Shown: positions 10,311 to 26,442 of the stretch, in pieces
Layout: the number at the start of each line of letters is the position of its first letter
Numbering within the stretch: position 1 is the stretch's first letter
Assembly (NCBI GenBank): GCA_016781555.1
Contig: JADDQD010000166.1
Coordinates: 1-46,515 of the forward strand
Length of the DNA stretch: 46,515 nucleotides
Direction of reading: 5' to 3'
Source: Pseudomonadota bacterium
Lineage (GTDB): Bacteria; Pseudomonadota; Alphaproteobacteria; Sphingomonadales; Sphingomonadaceae
The notes under the pieces: generated by a model
Told to the model about the DNA's origin: nothing
The model's database searches: none
The model's input: the letters and a program-made list of their open reading frames with translations, nothing else
Made by a program: the position numbers and the translations under genes

Positions 10311-10939
10311 CTTCCGCGTCTTCCCTTCACTTTCCGGCGAACCGCTTCCGCGACGATGATGTTGGCATCAGGGTCGGTAACACTCGGCTCGAGCTGGAAA
10401 TCACCCTGCCACAGTGATTCGACCGCTTCCAGTTCCGTCTTCGCGTTTCGGCCCTTTGGAAGGATCCATCGCGTGTTTGTTGTGGAAAATCGCTCTCCGA
10501 GGTCGAGCAATTTGCCGAGCGGGGCGAACGCGCGAGCGCTTATCACCGCGAAGGGCTGTGCTTCGACGGTTTCGATCTTGGCGCAGATGATGCGGGTACG
10601 GCCAGTGATGCCAAGGATTTCGGCCGCACGGATGAGAAAGTCGACGCGCAGCTTGCGTGCCTCGACAAGCGTCACGTGGCCGGGGAACAAGCAAGCGATC
10701 ACTAATCCGGGGAAGCCGGCCCCGGTGCCGAGGTCAAGCCAGGTGTCAGCGGTTGGCGGCGCCCATCTTAGCAGCTGCGCAGAATCAAGGACGTGCCGCT
10801 CCCAAACCCGCTCAAGGCTGGAGCGAGAAACAAGGTTTTGCCGCTCATTCTCCTCGCGCAGCAACGCCACGAAGGCGTCGATCCGGTTCAGTGTTTCACG
10901 TGGAACATTCAGCTGCGCCCGCGCTTCGGCCTGATCCAT
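10307..10939 (-). CDS. rsmG: 16S rRNA (guanine-N7)-methyltransferase RsmG/GidB
   Basis: NVPRETLNRIDAFVALLREENERQNLVSRSSLERVWERHVLDS, WLDLGTGAGFPGLV. Confidence 0.97.
   Translation of the reverse strand: MDQAEARAQLNVPRETLNRIDAFVALLREENERQNLVSRSSLERVWERHVLDSAQLLRWAPPTADTWLDLGTGAGFPGLVIACLFPGHVTLVEARKLRVDFLIRAAEILGITGRTRIICAKIETVEAQPFAVISARAFAPLGKLLDLGERFSTTNTRWILPKGRNAKTELEAVESLWQGDFQLEPSVTDPDANIIVAEAVRRKVKGRRGR
10892..10907. promoter_or_regulatory. parS-like site inside rsmG
   Basis: TGTTTCACGTGGAACA, one asymmetric position from a perfect 16-bp palindrome; adjacent to parAB. Confidence 0.88.
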
Positions 10940-12873: not shown

Positions 12874-12889
12874 TGTTCCACGTGGAACA
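12874..12889. promoter_or_regulatory. parS-like site between mnmE and mnmG
   Basis: TGTTCCACGTGGAACA, perfect 16-bp palindrome, extends to 18 bp (ATGTTCCACGTGGAACAT, 12873-12890). Confidence 0.92.
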
Positions 12890-14277: not shown

Positions 14278-14511
14278 CTATTTTTTGCGACCACCCATTT
14301 GGTCGAACATGGTCCGCCACATGGTTGAGGCCGCTTCGCTCATCGGGCCCCAAGTCTTCATCATGTCGGTGAAATATTCAGGGCTCACCCCTTCCGTGAC
14401 GGCTCTCTGCATCCGTTCAACATAGGCGTCATGAACCGGTGTGAGATCCGGCAGTCCCATGAAACGGCGCGCCTCTTCGGGCGTGCAATCGATATTCACC
14501 GTCACATTCAT
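14278..14511 (-). CDS. Small DUF6489-like protein
   Basis: MNVTVNIDCTPEEARRFMGLPDLTPVHDAYVERMQ...FDQMGGRKK; family name from recollection of small sphingomonad proteins. Confidence 0.7.
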   Translation of the reverse strand: MNVTVNIDCTPEEARRFMGLPDLTPVHDAYVERMQRAVTEGVSPEYFTDMMKTWGPMSEAASTMWRTMFDQMGGRKK

Positions 14512-14593
14512 CGGGATCACCTTTCGGCTGGTTGCGGGGTGGCCCCCCTCTATGTCTATAGTCGCCCCCGCTCAAGCCGAGGAGAGACCCAAG

Positions 14594-15289
14594 ATGCCGA
14601 TGATCGAGATTACCACGCTTTCCGGTGACGACAGTTTCCGCGCTTATTTGGCGGAACCGAATGGGACACCAAAAGCAGCCATCGTGGTCATCCAGGAGAT
14701 ATTCGGCGTCAATGAAGGGATCCGGCGCAAGTGCGACAGCTGGGCAGACAAAGGGTATCTTGCCCTCGCGCCCGATCTCTTTTGGCGCCTGCAGCCCGGG
14801 GTCGAGCTCGACCCTGACGTAGAGCCCGAATTCAATCAAGCCCTCGATCTTATGGGGCGCTTCGATCAGGACCAGGGAGTTGCCGACATCGAGGCAAGCA
14901 TCCGGGAAGGACGACAGCGCGTCGGCGGCGGTAAGGTCGGATGCGTCGGATTCTGCCTGGGCGGACGCCTGGCATTCATGACGGCAACTCGAACGGACGT
15001 TGACGCCAGCGTCGGCTACTATCCCGTCCGTATCGACAACCTCCTGCACGAACAGCACGCCATCGCCAAACCGCTGATGCTCCACATTGCGGGGGCCGAC
15101 CACTTCGTACCGCCCGAAGTTCAGAGGAAGATGCACGAAGTTCTGGATCATCACCCGCGGGTGATGATCCACGATTATCCTGGCGAAGATCACGGCTTTG
15201 CTGCCGAAATGGGCAAGAGGCGGAGCGAACAAGCTGCCGAGCTTGCGGACGGCCGCACGGACCGCTTCTTCGCTGAGCATCTCAGCTAG
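14594..15289 (+). CDS. Dienelactone hydrolase family protein
   Basis: IVVIQEIFGVNEGIRRKCDSWADKGYLALAPDLFWR, VGCVGFCLGGRLAFMTA, ADHFVPPEVQRKM. Confidence 0.92.
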   Translation: MPMIEITTLSGDDSFRAYLAEPNGTPKAAIVVIQEIFGVNEGIRRKCDSWADKGYLALAPDLFWRLQPGVELDPDVEPEFNQALDLMGRFDQDQGVADIEASIREGRQRVGGGKVGCVGFCLGGRLAFMTATRTDVDASVGYYPVRIDNLLHEQHAIAKPLMLHIAGADHFVPPEVQRKMHEVLDHHPRVMIHDYPGEDHGFAAEMGKRRSEQAAELADGRTDRFFAEHLS

Positions 15290-15391
15290 AGACTGCCGCC
15301 CGCCCGGTTCGACAAAGTCGAGCCAAAACCTAAGCCTGAGACGCTTTCCACGCTCCTGGCATGGGAGCGGAAGTCTCGTGATCTCATTGAG

Positions 15392-16381
15392 GTGGCAAAA
15401 GTGTCCAACCCATACCGTTACATCCTCTCCAAGACAGGCGGCCCCGAAGTGCTGGAGGCCGAGTTGATTGATGTTCCCATCCCGGGAGAAGGCGAGGTGC
15501 TCATCCGCCACGAAGCAATTGGGCTAAACTTCATCGATACCTATCACCGATCTGGTTTGTATCCGCAGCCGCTTCCGTCGCCACTTGGGACGGAAGCTGC
15601 GGGTGTGGTGGAGGCGGTAGGTCCCAAAGTGGATGGGCTGCGCGAAAACAATCGCGTCGCCTACTTTTCGGCGCCGCTTGGCGCTTACGCCACTCACCGC
15701 ACGCTCGCTGCCGAACGAGTGGTGAAGCTCCCCGATACGATCAGCAGCGAAGTTGCCGCCGCGGTTTTGCTGAAGGGGTGCACCGCTGAATTCTTGATCG
15801 AGCGATGTGCACGAGTCGAGGCGGACGAGCCTGTGCTCGTCCACGCCGCCGCGGGCGGTGTCGGATCGATCCTGGTACCTTGGCTCAAGGCGAGCGGCGC
15901 CATTGTCATTGCCCATGCGGGAAACAGTCGCAAAGCTGCCACCGCCAAGGAGCTCGGGGCCGACCACGCATTATGCTGCCCTATGGAGGAGCTCGCGGGG
16001 CAAGTTCGCGCCATCACGGGCGGCAAGGGTGTTCCGGTGGTGCTTGACGGCGTCGGCGCGGCGAGCTGGCAGGCCTCCTTAGCCTCTGTTGCCCGGCGCG
16101 GACTGCTTGTCAGTTTTGGGAATGCCTCGGGCCCCGTTCCGCCCTTCTCGGCCTTGGATCTCCTCAAGGCCGGCTCGATCTTCGTGACGCGGCCGACCTT
16201 GTTCGATTACGTCGCTACGCCGGAACAGATGCAGGCGGCCGCGGCGCGAGTGTTCGAAATGGTTGCAAGCGGTGCAATCCAAGTGAAGATCGGCAGGCGC
16301 TTCCCCCTGACAGAGGCAGCCGAAGCGCACCGGGCCATCGAAGCGCGCGCCACCACAGGCTCAACGGTGCTCATTCCGTAG
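15392..16381 (+). CDS. Zinc-independent quinone oxidoreductase (MDR family)
   Basis: IGLNFIDTYHRSGLYPQPLPSPLGTEAAGVV, VHAAAGGVGSILVPWLKASGA. Confidence 0.92.
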   Translation: MAKVSNPYRYILSKTGGPEVLEAELIDVPIPGEGEVLIRHEAIGLNFIDTYHRSGLYPQPLPSPLGTEAAGVVEAVGPKVDGLRENNRVAYFSAPLGAYATHRTLAAERVVKLPDTISSEVAAAVLLKGCTAEFLIERCARVEADEPVLVHAAAGGVGSILVPWLKASGAIVIAHAGNSRKAATAKELGADHALCCPMEELAGQVRAITGGKGVPVVLDGVGAASWQASLASVARRGLLVSFGNASGPVPPFSALDLLKAGSIFVTRPTLFDYVATPEQMQAAAARVFEMVASGAIQVKIGRRFPLTEAAEAHRAIEARATTGSTVLIP

Positions 16382-18616: not shown

Positions 18617-19075
18617 TCAGAACGGTTTTACGATCACGAGAATAACGATGAGCGCAGCGGCAATGCCCGGAATCTCGTTCATGATCCTCAGCGCTTTTCC
18701 GCTCACCGGCCGTTCTCCACGCGCAAGCTTCTTGCCGTATGCAACCATATATCCATGATAGCCCGAAAGAAGCAAAACGAGGAGGAGCTTGGCGTGGAGC
18801 CATGCTTCGCCCCAGGCGCCGATGATCGAGGCGAGCGAGAGGCCGAGCACCCAAACGATGATCATGGCCGGCGTGATGATGATGTTGCGGAGCTTGCGCT
18901 CACGCTCGATCCACCGCTTTTCCTCGACCGAACCGGGCGTCGCCTCCTGATGATAAACATAATAGCGCGGCAGCATGAATAGCCCTGCAATCCAGAAGAT
19001 CACGAAGATGACATGCGCTGCCTTGATCCAGGCGTAGGTCAATGAAAGAGCCGTTCCCAAATCATGCGTGATCAC
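18617..19075 (-). CDS. hemJ: Protoporphyrinogen oxidase HemJ / CopD-like membrane protein
   Basis: YAWIKAAHVIFVIFWIAGLFMLPRYYVYH...; directly upstream-coupled to hemE. Confidence 0.88.
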   Translation of the reverse strand: MITHDLGTALSLTYAWIKAAHVIFVIFWIAGLFMLPRYYVYHQEATPGSVEEKRWIERERKLRNIIITPAMIIVWVLGLSLASIIGAWGEAWLHAKLLLVLLLSGYHGYMVAYGKKLARGERPVSGKALRIMNEIPGIAAALIVILVIVKPF

Positions 19076-20097
19076 CGGCGGACCAGCCCCAGGAGCTGTT
19101 CAACATGCGCGATCGGTGTGTCCGGCAAGATGCCATGCCCCAAATTGAAGACGTGCGGTCTGTCTGCAAAGGCTGATAGTATGCGGCCGACCGCACTTTC
19201 AAGCGCTTCCCCGCCCGCGATCAGCGCCAGCGGATCAAGATTGCCCTGGATCGGAAGCGCATCGGGGAGCTCGGCTGCAGCCCAAACCGGATCCACGGTC
19301 TCGTCCAGGCCAATAGCATCGACCCCCGTTCCGGCCGCATAAGGGCGAAGCTTGCCGCCGGCACCCTTTGGAAAGCCGATCACCGGGACGTTTGGGTGCC
19401 GGGCCTTGAAAGCGGACACGATCCTTGCGTTGGGGCCGATCACCCACTGCTCGAACTGCGCAGGCGCCAGGCTTCCCGCCCAGCTGTCGAACAGCTGCAC
19501 CGCCTCGACGCCTGCACCCACTTGTCCGGATAGGTAATCGACAGTGGTGTTGACGATCGCATCGATGATCTCTGCAAAAGCCGATGGGTCACGGTACGCA
19601 TAGCGACGCGCCTCAGCCTGCTCCTTGCTGCCGCGGCCCGCCACCATGTAGGTCGCCACCGTCCAGGGGCTCCCCGCAAAGCCCAGCAACGTGGTTTCTG
19701 GCGGCAATGCAGCCTTCACCTTCTCCACAGTCCGGTAGATGGGCTCGAGACGCTCAGGAACGGCTTCCAGCGCGCCTAGCGCGGCATCCATGAGCGGGGG
19801 CGAGAGCCGCGGACCCTCGCCAGCCTCGAACCGAAGCTCTTGGCCGAGGGCATAGGGGACGATGAGGATGTCCGAGAAGAGAATGGCGCCATCAAAACCG
19901 AAGCGGCGGATCGGCTGAAGCGTAACCTCGGCGGCAGCGTCGCTGTCGTACACGAGCTCGAGGAAGCCTCCTCTGTCGGCCCGCAAGGCTCGATATTCGG
20001 GCAGGTACCGGCCTGCCTGACGCATCAGCCAAACCGGTGTGTTCTCTACTTTTTTGCCTTTCAGGACGGTGAGCAAGGGCTTGTTCGGACCGGCCAT
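19072..20097 (-). CDS. hemE: Uroporphyrinogen decarboxylase
   Basis: TPVWLMRQAGRYLPEYRALRA, ILFSDILIVPYALGQ, GFAGSPWTVATYMVAGRGSK, NLGHGILPDTP. Confidence 0.98.
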   Translation of the reverse strand: MAGPNKPLLTVLKGKKVENTPVWLMRQAGRYLPEYRALRADRGGFLELVYDSDAAAEVTLQPIRRFGFDGAILFSDILIVPYALGQELRFEAGEGPRLSPPLMDAALGALEAVPERLEPIYRTVEKVKAALPPETTLLGFAGSPWTVATYMVAGRGSKEQAEARRYAYRDPSAFAEIIDAIVNTTVDYLSGQVGAGVEAVQLFDSWAGSLAPAQFEQWVIGPNARIVSAFKARHPNVPVIGFPKGAGGKLRPYAAGTGVDAIGLDETVDPVWAAAELPDALPIQGNLDPLALIAGGEALESAVGRILSAFADRPHVFNLGHGILPDTPIAHVEQLLGLVRR

Positions 20098-20410
20098 GGA
20101 AAGACTGAAGCTCCGCTCTCTTATCTAATGAGTCTTATTTTAAAGAGAGTCTGATGAAGGTTGTAGGGCGACCCGTCGCGGGGTTTATTGCGTTCGCTCC
20201 GAATTGCAAACAACTTGACTCTCCGGCACCCACGGAGCCGCGCAGAGTCGTATCTCTTTTCCCCACTTTCCACAGCGCGGTCCGAATCCTTTTACACTCT
20301 TTGTTAAGCTGTGGATCGAATCCGGATAGCGGGGACGAAAGCTATCCTTGTAAGCGTCCCGAAGGTTCCGCTAGCCTTATCGACATGGTTTTCCACAGGG
20401 TCGCGTCGGC
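20098..20410. other. oriC: Probable chromosomal replication origin (oriC)
   Basis: 313-bp non-coding gap next to hemE with DnaA-box-like 9-mers TTATCGACA (20377-20385), TTTTCCACA (20389-20397), CTTTCCACA (20266-20274), minus-strand CGATCCACA (20310-20318), TTTTACACT (20290-20298); AT-rich stretch 20121-20145; genes diverge from it; parABS lies on the left side. Confidence 0.8.
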
Positions 20411-21235
20411 GTGAGTCAGCTCCATCTACACCTCCTTTCCGACTCCACCGGCGAGACGTTGGAGGTGATCGCCAAGGCTTGCCTGGCGCAATTCGACAAC
20501 GTTGAGGTGCTGCGGCATTTCTGGCCGATGGTGCGGTCAGAAGGGCATCTCGACCGCGTGCTCGACGACATCGAGCGGCGGCCGGGGCTGGTGCTCTACA
20601 CCCTGGTGAACAGCAACATCCGGCGGGATCTGGAACAGAAGTGCCGGCGCCGCGGCATCCATGCGGTGTCGGCGCTCGATCCAGTCGTGGACGCCCTTTC
20701 CGTGGTGCTCGGCCAACAAGCTAAAGCAAGGCCTGGCCGGCAGCATGCGCTGGATGCTGCCTATTTCGCCCGCGTGGACGCAATTCAATTCACGATCGCG
20801 CATGACGATGGGATCGGCTCCGACAACTGGTAGGAAGCAGACATCATTCTCGCGGGCGTCTCGCGAACGTCGAAGACCCCAACTTCGATCTACCTTGCCA
20901 ACCGCGGCTACAAGGTTGCCAACATTCCCCTGGTGCCGGAAGCGCCGCCGCCGGTGAACCTCTTCACGGTCCAGCATCCTTTGGTGGTTGGGCTGACCAC
21001 GAGCTGCGATCGCCTTATCCAAATTCGGCGTAACCGGCTCCTGGCGCTCAACCAGGCCCCTGAGACGGACTATGTCGACTTGGAGGCGGTGAACGCCGAG
21101 CTTGCGTTTGCGCGGCGTATGTTCGCCGACAATGGCTGGCCGGTGATCGACGTCACCCGGAGGTCGATCGAGGAAACGGCATTCGCCATCATGAAACTGT
21201 GTGAGCAACGCCACGACGCAACAGTGACGGCGTGA
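20411..21235 (+). pseudogene. ppsR: Pyruvate, phosphate dikinase / PEP synthase regulatory protein (PPSR, DUF299), interrupted by in-frame TAG at 20831-20833
   Basis: 20411-20830 encodes LHLHLLSDSTGETLEVIAKACLAQF...DGIGSDNW; same frame resumes after TAG with [40 protein letters not shown]... to 21235; total length normal for PPSR. Confidence 0.9.
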
Positions 21236-25240: not shown

Positions 25241-25585
25241 ATGATGGAGCCGCGGCTGAAGACCTCGATGCTCGTCGGGGCACTGATTCGGCGAGCCGAA
25301 TCGGTGGGGGGATTCGCAGCCGTGCTCGCGAAAGGCGATTCGTCCGCCGGATCTATCCTGGTGATTCTGGCCGAAAAGGGCAGAAAAGTGGGGATTTTGG
25401 AGCGCCTGTTGCAGCCGAACGGCTCTTATGACTGGCGCGACACAGGGAATCGGCCGCTCGAAAACGCGCTCGAGGAGCAAAAGTTCCTGGCGCGAAGGCG
25501 CGAATTCGACCCGGATTTGTGGGTTTTGGAACTGGACGTCCCGTCAGCTGAACGGTTCGCCGCTGAAATGAACGAGTCGGTTTGA
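25241..25585 (+). CDS. DUF1491-like protein
   Basis: MMEPRLKTSMLVGALIRRAESVGGFAAVLAKGDSSAGSILVILAEKGRKVGILERLL...ARRREFDPDLWVLELD. Confidence 0.75.
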   Translation: MMEPRLKTSMLVGALIRRAESVGGFAAVLAKGDSSAGSILVILAEKGRKVGILERLLQPNGSYDWRDTGNRPLENALEEQKFLARRREFDPDLWVLELDVPSAERFAAEMNESV

Positions 25586-25752
25586 CTCGTTACGCATCCG
25601 GCTCGTACCCCAAACTCACCTTTTGAGAGCGGGGGGTTGCGGTTAGCCCGGGGGTAGGGGGCGAGCGGCCACGCGAGACGGGGGGGCAAGCCACTGGGTG
25701 CCGTCTGCATCCAGCTATTTCGGCCGGCCGCACCGCCAGTGAATGTGATCAG

Positions 25753-26442
25753 ATGTTCAGCTACGTTCGTGCTGCGGCCTTCGCCGTGGCTGCCGTCGGA
25801 GCGGCTTTGGCTCCGAGTTTTGCTGACCCTTCCCTCGCTTGGGAACTGCAGCCAACCGCCGCAGCACCTTTCAATCATGCTGCTGCCAATCTGGATGGCG
25901 GTGCCCTCGAGGCGAACACCGTCCAACCGGCTGAAACGCTTCCATACGACATCGATATCTCGGCGGCCGTGGCCGCGCATGCGGTGGCCACCGTCGCTCC
26001 TGATGACTCCGAAGAGAAAGCAGCTCCGGTTCGTCCGCTGAGCGCGCTCGTGGAAGAGCATTCCGGCACCAAAACTACTGACAGCGAAATGGGGTGCCTT
26101 GCTGGCGCCATTTATTTCGAGTCCAAAGGCGAACCGCTCGCCGGCCAGCTCGCCGTGGCCGAAGTGATTATCAACCGCGCAAAATCGGGCCGGTATCCTT
26201 CGAGCTTGTGCGGCGTCGTGAAGCAGCGGGGCCAGTTCTCCTTCATTCGCGCTGGCCACTTCCCAGCCTTCTCGCGGGACAATAGCCATTGGCGCAAGGC
26301 GGTTGCGATCGCGCACATTGCCATCAAGGACCTGGCCGACAGCCCTGCGGCGCAGGCGCTTTCCTTTCACGCCACTCGGGTTTCGCCGGGCTGGCGGATG
26401 AAACGCGTTGCGCGAGTGGGCAATCACATCTTTTATCGCTGA
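25753..26442 (+). CDS. SleB-type cell wall hydrolase, exported
   Basis: N-terminal hydrophobic segment; CLAGAIYFESKGEPLAGQLAVAEVIINRAKSGRYPSSLCGVVKQRGQFSF. Confidence 0.9.
   Translation: MFSYVRAAAFAVAAVGAALAPSFADPSLAWELQPTAAAPFNHAAANLDGGALEANTVQPAETLPYDIDISAAVAAHAVATVAPDDSEEKAAPVRPLSALVEEHSGTKTTDSEMGCLAGAIYFESKGEPLAGQLAVAEVIINRAKSGRYPSSLCGVVKQRGQFSFIRAGHFPAFSRDNSHWRKAVAIAHIAIKDLADSPAAQALSFHATRVSPGWRMKRVARVGNHIFYR

Follow-up and report, generated by a model that had tools for sequence, protein, structure and literature searches.

The question raised by this locus is whether the intergenic gap between hemE and ppsR is the place where chromosome replication begins, as the initial annotation of the 46,515-nt stretch of DNA analyzed here (the window) had proposed. 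The gap is very probably the DnaA-dependent chromosomal origin (oriC) of this sphingomonad, and the earlier proposal is supported by congener conservation, a GC-skew switch, the proximity of parS sites and an oriC-like layout of conserved footprints. Support for the predicted position is as firm as comparative data can give. The locus comprises the following features.

19072-20097, minus strand: hemE (TIGR01464, 391.8 bits)
20098-20410, no strand, 313 bp: predicted oriC, the whole hemE-ppsR intergenic gap, with conserved neighbours, orientation and length and a skew switch in closed congeners
20411-21232, plus strand: ppsR (COG1806/DUF299), with PF03618 (Kinase-PPPase) matched across both halves and an in-frame TAG at 20831
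10892-10907, plus strand: parS site TGTTTCACGTGGAACA
12874-12889, plus strand: parS-like site TGTTCCACGTGGAACA

Profile searches place parB, parA, rsmG, mnmG, mnmE, a YjbE-family gene, rho, hemJ and hemE on the minus strand and ppsR, maf, aroE, coaE, a dnaQ-like exonuclease gene and hpf on the plus strand, which bears out the switch in gene polarity previously noticed at the gap. An Rfam search of the window finds no known RNA in the gap. The in-frame TAG of ppsR (20831-20833) corresponds to a Glu codon (GAG or GAA) in all congeners read, with the frame otherwise intact in both halves, and would be explained by a recent nonsense mutation or by an error of assembly. In the stretch from mnmE to the YjbE-family gene (14429-16381), a minus-strand ORF of 360 aa overlaps a plus-strand ORF of 329 aa; the former matches nothing in NCBIfam or Pfam.

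GC skew is analyzed in closed congeners because the window genome is an open, 82%-complete MAG. Samples of 20 kb are taken along three closed congeners (G021, G008 and G010), and the best half-split of each is evaluated with a permutation test. The best skew origin is located at 1858 kb in G021 (gap at 1876 kb; p <5e-5), at 1797 kb in G008 (gap at 1836 kb; p <1e-4) and at 1060 kb in G010 (gap at 1121 kb; p <0.001). Estimates from these 20-kb samples fall 18-60 kb off the gap and are least precise for G010, where the raw cumulative skew minimum lies at 1313 kb, ~190 kb from the gap. Skew had been named as a check on the oriC reading, and a sign change at or near the gap, a general mark of oriC, is seen in the samples from all three congeners, with the best skew origin not far from the gap. 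Matches to parS are found 5-9 kb from the gap and nowhere else in the sequence examined from four genomes (the three closed congeners and the window's own).

The distance between dnaA and the gap is ~1.4, 0.89 and 0.88 Mb in G021, G008 and G010, respectively. An origin beside dnaA is rejected, since dnaA fails to divide the skew in the expected direction and, in the window genome, the 3.5 kb at dnaA hold no DnaA box within one mismatch. In Sphingomonadales, dnaA is reported not to keep a conserved place near ori (PMC8116508). The G021 contig (L178, C1) begins at dnaA, which is nearer the skew-inferred terminus than the origin, so dnaA-first numbering puts base 1 far from the origin.

Conservation of the gap is evaluated in 26 congeners, twenty-five of which come from a search of whole related genomes, and in 80 additional hemE loci, drawn from named genomes that nearly all belong to Sphingomonadaceae/Sphingomonadales. 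These relatives place the window in a sphingomonad-like alphaproteobacterium. The 25 congeners found by search keep the gap, with a DNA identity of 68-81% where it aligns (in G014, the match falls into two pieces). The 26 congeners and nearly every other sphingomonad locus read have the same neighbours, orientation and ~300-bp length; hemE and ppsR diverge around a ~270-430 bp gap in nearly all of the 80 additional loci. This conservation is selective, as 67 of the 313 gap positions are invariant compared with 4 of 67 fourfold-degenerate sites in hemE of the same 26 genomes, although conserved non-coding sequence between divergent genes could derive partly from promoters.

Read from hemE to ppsR, the conserved order is an AT-rich stretch with AGAGTC repeats, TGWTGAAGGTWGTAGG, GGTTTATT, TTGC[A/C]AACAGYTTGAC (which contains AANNNNTTGA), a GA[G/T]TCG site, TCCCCNNNATCCACA, CTGTGG (the minus-strand box) and TTWTCCACA. 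Judged by sequence, these congener footprints match an oriC layout. The corresponding features in the window are listed below.

20113-20151, no strand: AT-rich segment with the CTCTCTT/AAGAGAG inverted repeat and two GAGTC sites, at which the most AT-rich 100 bp of the window begins
20152-20167, plus strand: TGATGAAGGTTGTAGG block adjoining the AT-rich segment, with positions 20153, 20156, 20164 and 20166 invariant in 26 congeners
20180-20189, plus strand: conserved element GGGGTTTATT, containing GGTTTATT (20182-20189)
20204-20219, plus strand: IHF-like site TTGCAAACAACTTGAC with core AANNNNTTGA (20209-20218), near invariant in 26 congeners
20245-20249, no strand: GANTC (CcrM) site, kept in 26/26 congeners
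20130, 20147, 20217, 20284 and 20318: other GANTC sites of the gap
20266-20274, plus strand: DnaA box CTTTCCACA (NTATCCACA or similar in most congeners), with CACA invariant and preceded by an invariant TCCCC at 20260-20264
20310-20318, minus strand: DnaA box CGATCCACA, with TGTGG (20310-20314) invariant in 26/26 congeners
20377-20385, plus strand: TTATCGACA, box-like only here and in a few relatives, most congeners having TTTCCCCA or TTTCAACA
20389-20397, plus strand: best-conserved DnaA box TTTTCCACA (TTATCCACA in several congeners), near invariant in 26 congeners

Five sites within two mismatches of TTATCCACA occur in the 313-bp gap, which is about ten times the window mean of 0.49 and is reached at 0.4% of window positions. 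The gap of the window genome contains no perfect DnaA box. In G021, counting boxes is not enough to pick out the locus, since four sites are likewise reached at five other places in 1.2 Mb. The 9-mers quoted in the initial annotation and its 7-bp inverted repeat are all found where it had placed them. Of the DnaA boxes it proposed, those at 20266, 20310 (minus strand) and 20389 are conserved in congeners, and those at 20377 (TTATCGACA) and 20290 (TTTTACACT) are not conserved as boxes. Its pair of boxes 3 nt apart (20377/20389) therefore becomes, by congener alignment, one strong conserved box beside a non-conserved one. At least one TTWTCCACA with no more than one mismatch is present in 99% of 77 non-congener gaps compared with 12% of shuffles.

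The 100 bp richest in AT anywhere in the window also lie in the gap (56% AT versus a mean of 37%). Within it, the AT-richness and AGAGTC repeats of 20113-20151 are kept in congeners and the exact sequence varies; this segment is the probable duplex-unwinding region. The adjoining block (20152-20167) has the conserved form TGWTGAAGGTWGTAGG in the congener footprint. A DnaA-trio (BUS) unwinding element is rejected for this block, whose minus strand is only superficially trio-like: by inspection, congeners show about two contiguous GAT trios there, and the closest conserved box is ~100 bp off, whereas the published spacing and repeat pattern asks for at least three.A. trios no more than 16 bp from a DnaA box (PMC8287927). 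Allowing one mismatch, GGTTTATT is found in 26/26 congeners and in 58% of 77 other sphingomonad gaps versus 20% in shuffles, and AACAGYTTGAC, allowing two, is found in 55% of the same 77 gaps versus 12% in shuffles. The strict IHF consensus WATCAANNNNTTR is absent from the gap, and IHF/HU-family genes are present in the genome. Both GGTTTATT and TGWTGAAGGTWGTAGG are strongly conserved, yet they match no DnaA, CtrA or strict IHF consensus.

A working scheme for a DnaA-dependent oriC goes beyond the observed position and conservation of the gap to protein binding, melting and a role for each element, which we infer. DnaA would load on the three conserved boxes (20266, plus strand; 20310, minus strand; 20389, plus strand), and an IHF-type protein would bend the DNA at the TTGCAAACARCTTGAC site. 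The bend would let the DnaA complex reach the AT-rich segment beside hemE, which would then melt and admit DnaB. ParB/parS, located 7-9 kb away, would segregate the duplicated origins.

The gap contains six GANTC sites compared with 0.63 expected from the window average. The site at 20245 is present in 26/26 congeners, followed by those at 20147 (19/26), 20217 (17/26), 20130 (12/26), 20318 (9/26) and 20284 (fewer than 4); the site at 20217 overlaps the IHF-like block. Across 103 distinct sphingomonad gaps, 495 GANTC sites are counted versus 147 in dinucleotide shuffles (3.4-fold, z 36.7). This excess is the largest among all 16 palindromic XYNYX pentamers; AGNCT ranks second, with some overlap in the same AGAGTCT sequences. 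In the 1.2 Mb sampled from G021, GANTC density peaks at the origin gap, and intergenic-like gaps of that genome average 1.9 sites per kb versus 19 per kb in the window's gap; the greedy ORF calling behind these intergenic controls missed the origin gap itself and is used for background density only. CcrM (match to 6pbd, E 3e-145; RAMA domain, weak match) and GcrA are both encoded in the genome. A GANTC cluster at dnaA, suspected from G021, is rejected as not general across nine dnaA loci. A second dense cluster (8 in 313 bp, with repeated GATTCG/CGAATC) occupies 25272-25590, ~5 kb away from the origin, and is followed downstream by a cell-wall hydrolase gene (25753-26442). A literature search, with most subscription papers outside its reach, finds no report of the GANTC pattern for sphingomonad origins.

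These sites could add a layer that is compatible with oriC, namely a methylation switch on initiation, although such a switch is rather unlikely. After fork passage, GANTC would be hemimethylated until CcrM acts late in the cycle, and hemimethylated sites, some of them inside the AT-rich and IHF-like elements, would alter the binding of DnaA, IHF or GcrA, much like the GATC sites and SeqA at E. coli oriC. The GANTC excess in the 103 gaps, its peak density in G021, the full retention of 20245, the overlap of 20217 with the IHF-like site and the presence of CcrM and GcrA all favour this switch. However, the Caulobacter origin also has several GANTC sites, and loss of CcrM did not disturb its initiation control (PMC3973325); GANTC is moreover enriched in alphaproteobacterial intergenic DNA generally. 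The sites may instead serve hemE/ppsR transcription, and both such control and general CcrM/GcrA biology are possible explanations of the array. It is a tentative proposal that, through the conserved array of sphingomonad origins, hemimethylation by CcrM might time or limit initiation, with GcrA, DnaA or an IHF-type protein as its reader. If true, this would be an alphaproteobacterial counterpart of Dam/SeqA, unlike Caulobacter, where CcrM was found dispensable for initiation control. With this array, an effect of CcrM methylation on initiation becomes testable at DnaA-dependent origins other than that of Caulobacter.

It is highly improbable that the gap is only a divergent promoter or regulatory region serving hemE and ppsR, where DnaA would regulate transcription, and that replication starts elsewhere, such as beside dnaA: promoters must sit in the gap, since both genes start there, and GANTC clusters are typical of CcrM/GcrA-regulated promoters too (PMC3973325), but the skew switches near the gap and not at dnaA in the three closed relatives, parS is near the gap only, the 3.5 kb surrounding dnaA in the window genome has no DnaA box with one mismatch or fewer, and 19900-20600 has no match to a sigma-70-type promoter or terminator.

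As a DnaA-dependent oriC, the hemE-ppsR gap is of a known kind, already described for Caulobacter, Rickettsia and Sphingomonadaceae, and the parallel with the first two that the initial annotation had drawn from the position of hemE is sound. The Caulobacter crescentus origin, Cori, sits in the same gap between hemE and a COG1806 gene, CC_0001 (PMC1914354). The two share both flanking genes (TIGR01464 and PF03618 here), a cluster of DnaA boxes (three conserved in 26 congeners, imperfect in the window genome), an AT-rich segment, a putative IHF-type site and GANTC sites; in this sphingomonad, dnaA is far from the origin. CtrA sites are a Caulobacter feature that is variable elsewhere and is not required of the wider hemE-type group. 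Control by CtrA is rejected here, as the gap, unlike that of Caulobacter, has no TTAA-N7-TTAA, which is present in 1% of the 103 sphingomonad gaps. CtrA is dispensable in Sphingomonas melonis (PMC8116508), and some other hemE-type origins lack its sites (PMC1914354).

In Sphingomonadaceae, oriC has been predicted near hemE (PMC4741004). The predictions for Sphingopyxis and other members of the family (PMC4741004; DoriC) concern other species and share the place by hemE, conserved DnaA boxes and a putative unwinding element; whole-chromosome skew, parS, the IHF-like and GGTTTATT blocks and GANTC enrichment are new here. With E. coli oriC, the gap shares the layout of a probable AT-rich unwinding region, a putative IHF site and DnaA boxes, as well as a cluster of sites for a solitary adenine methylase, but it has GANTC/CcrM in place of GATC/Dam, three conserved boxes only and hemE and ppsR as flanks. 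As an origin the locus is unremarkable. It locates oriC in an uncultured sphingomonad and supplies the group with a footprinted consensus, and GANTC enrichment is the one addition to the known picture of hemE-type origins.
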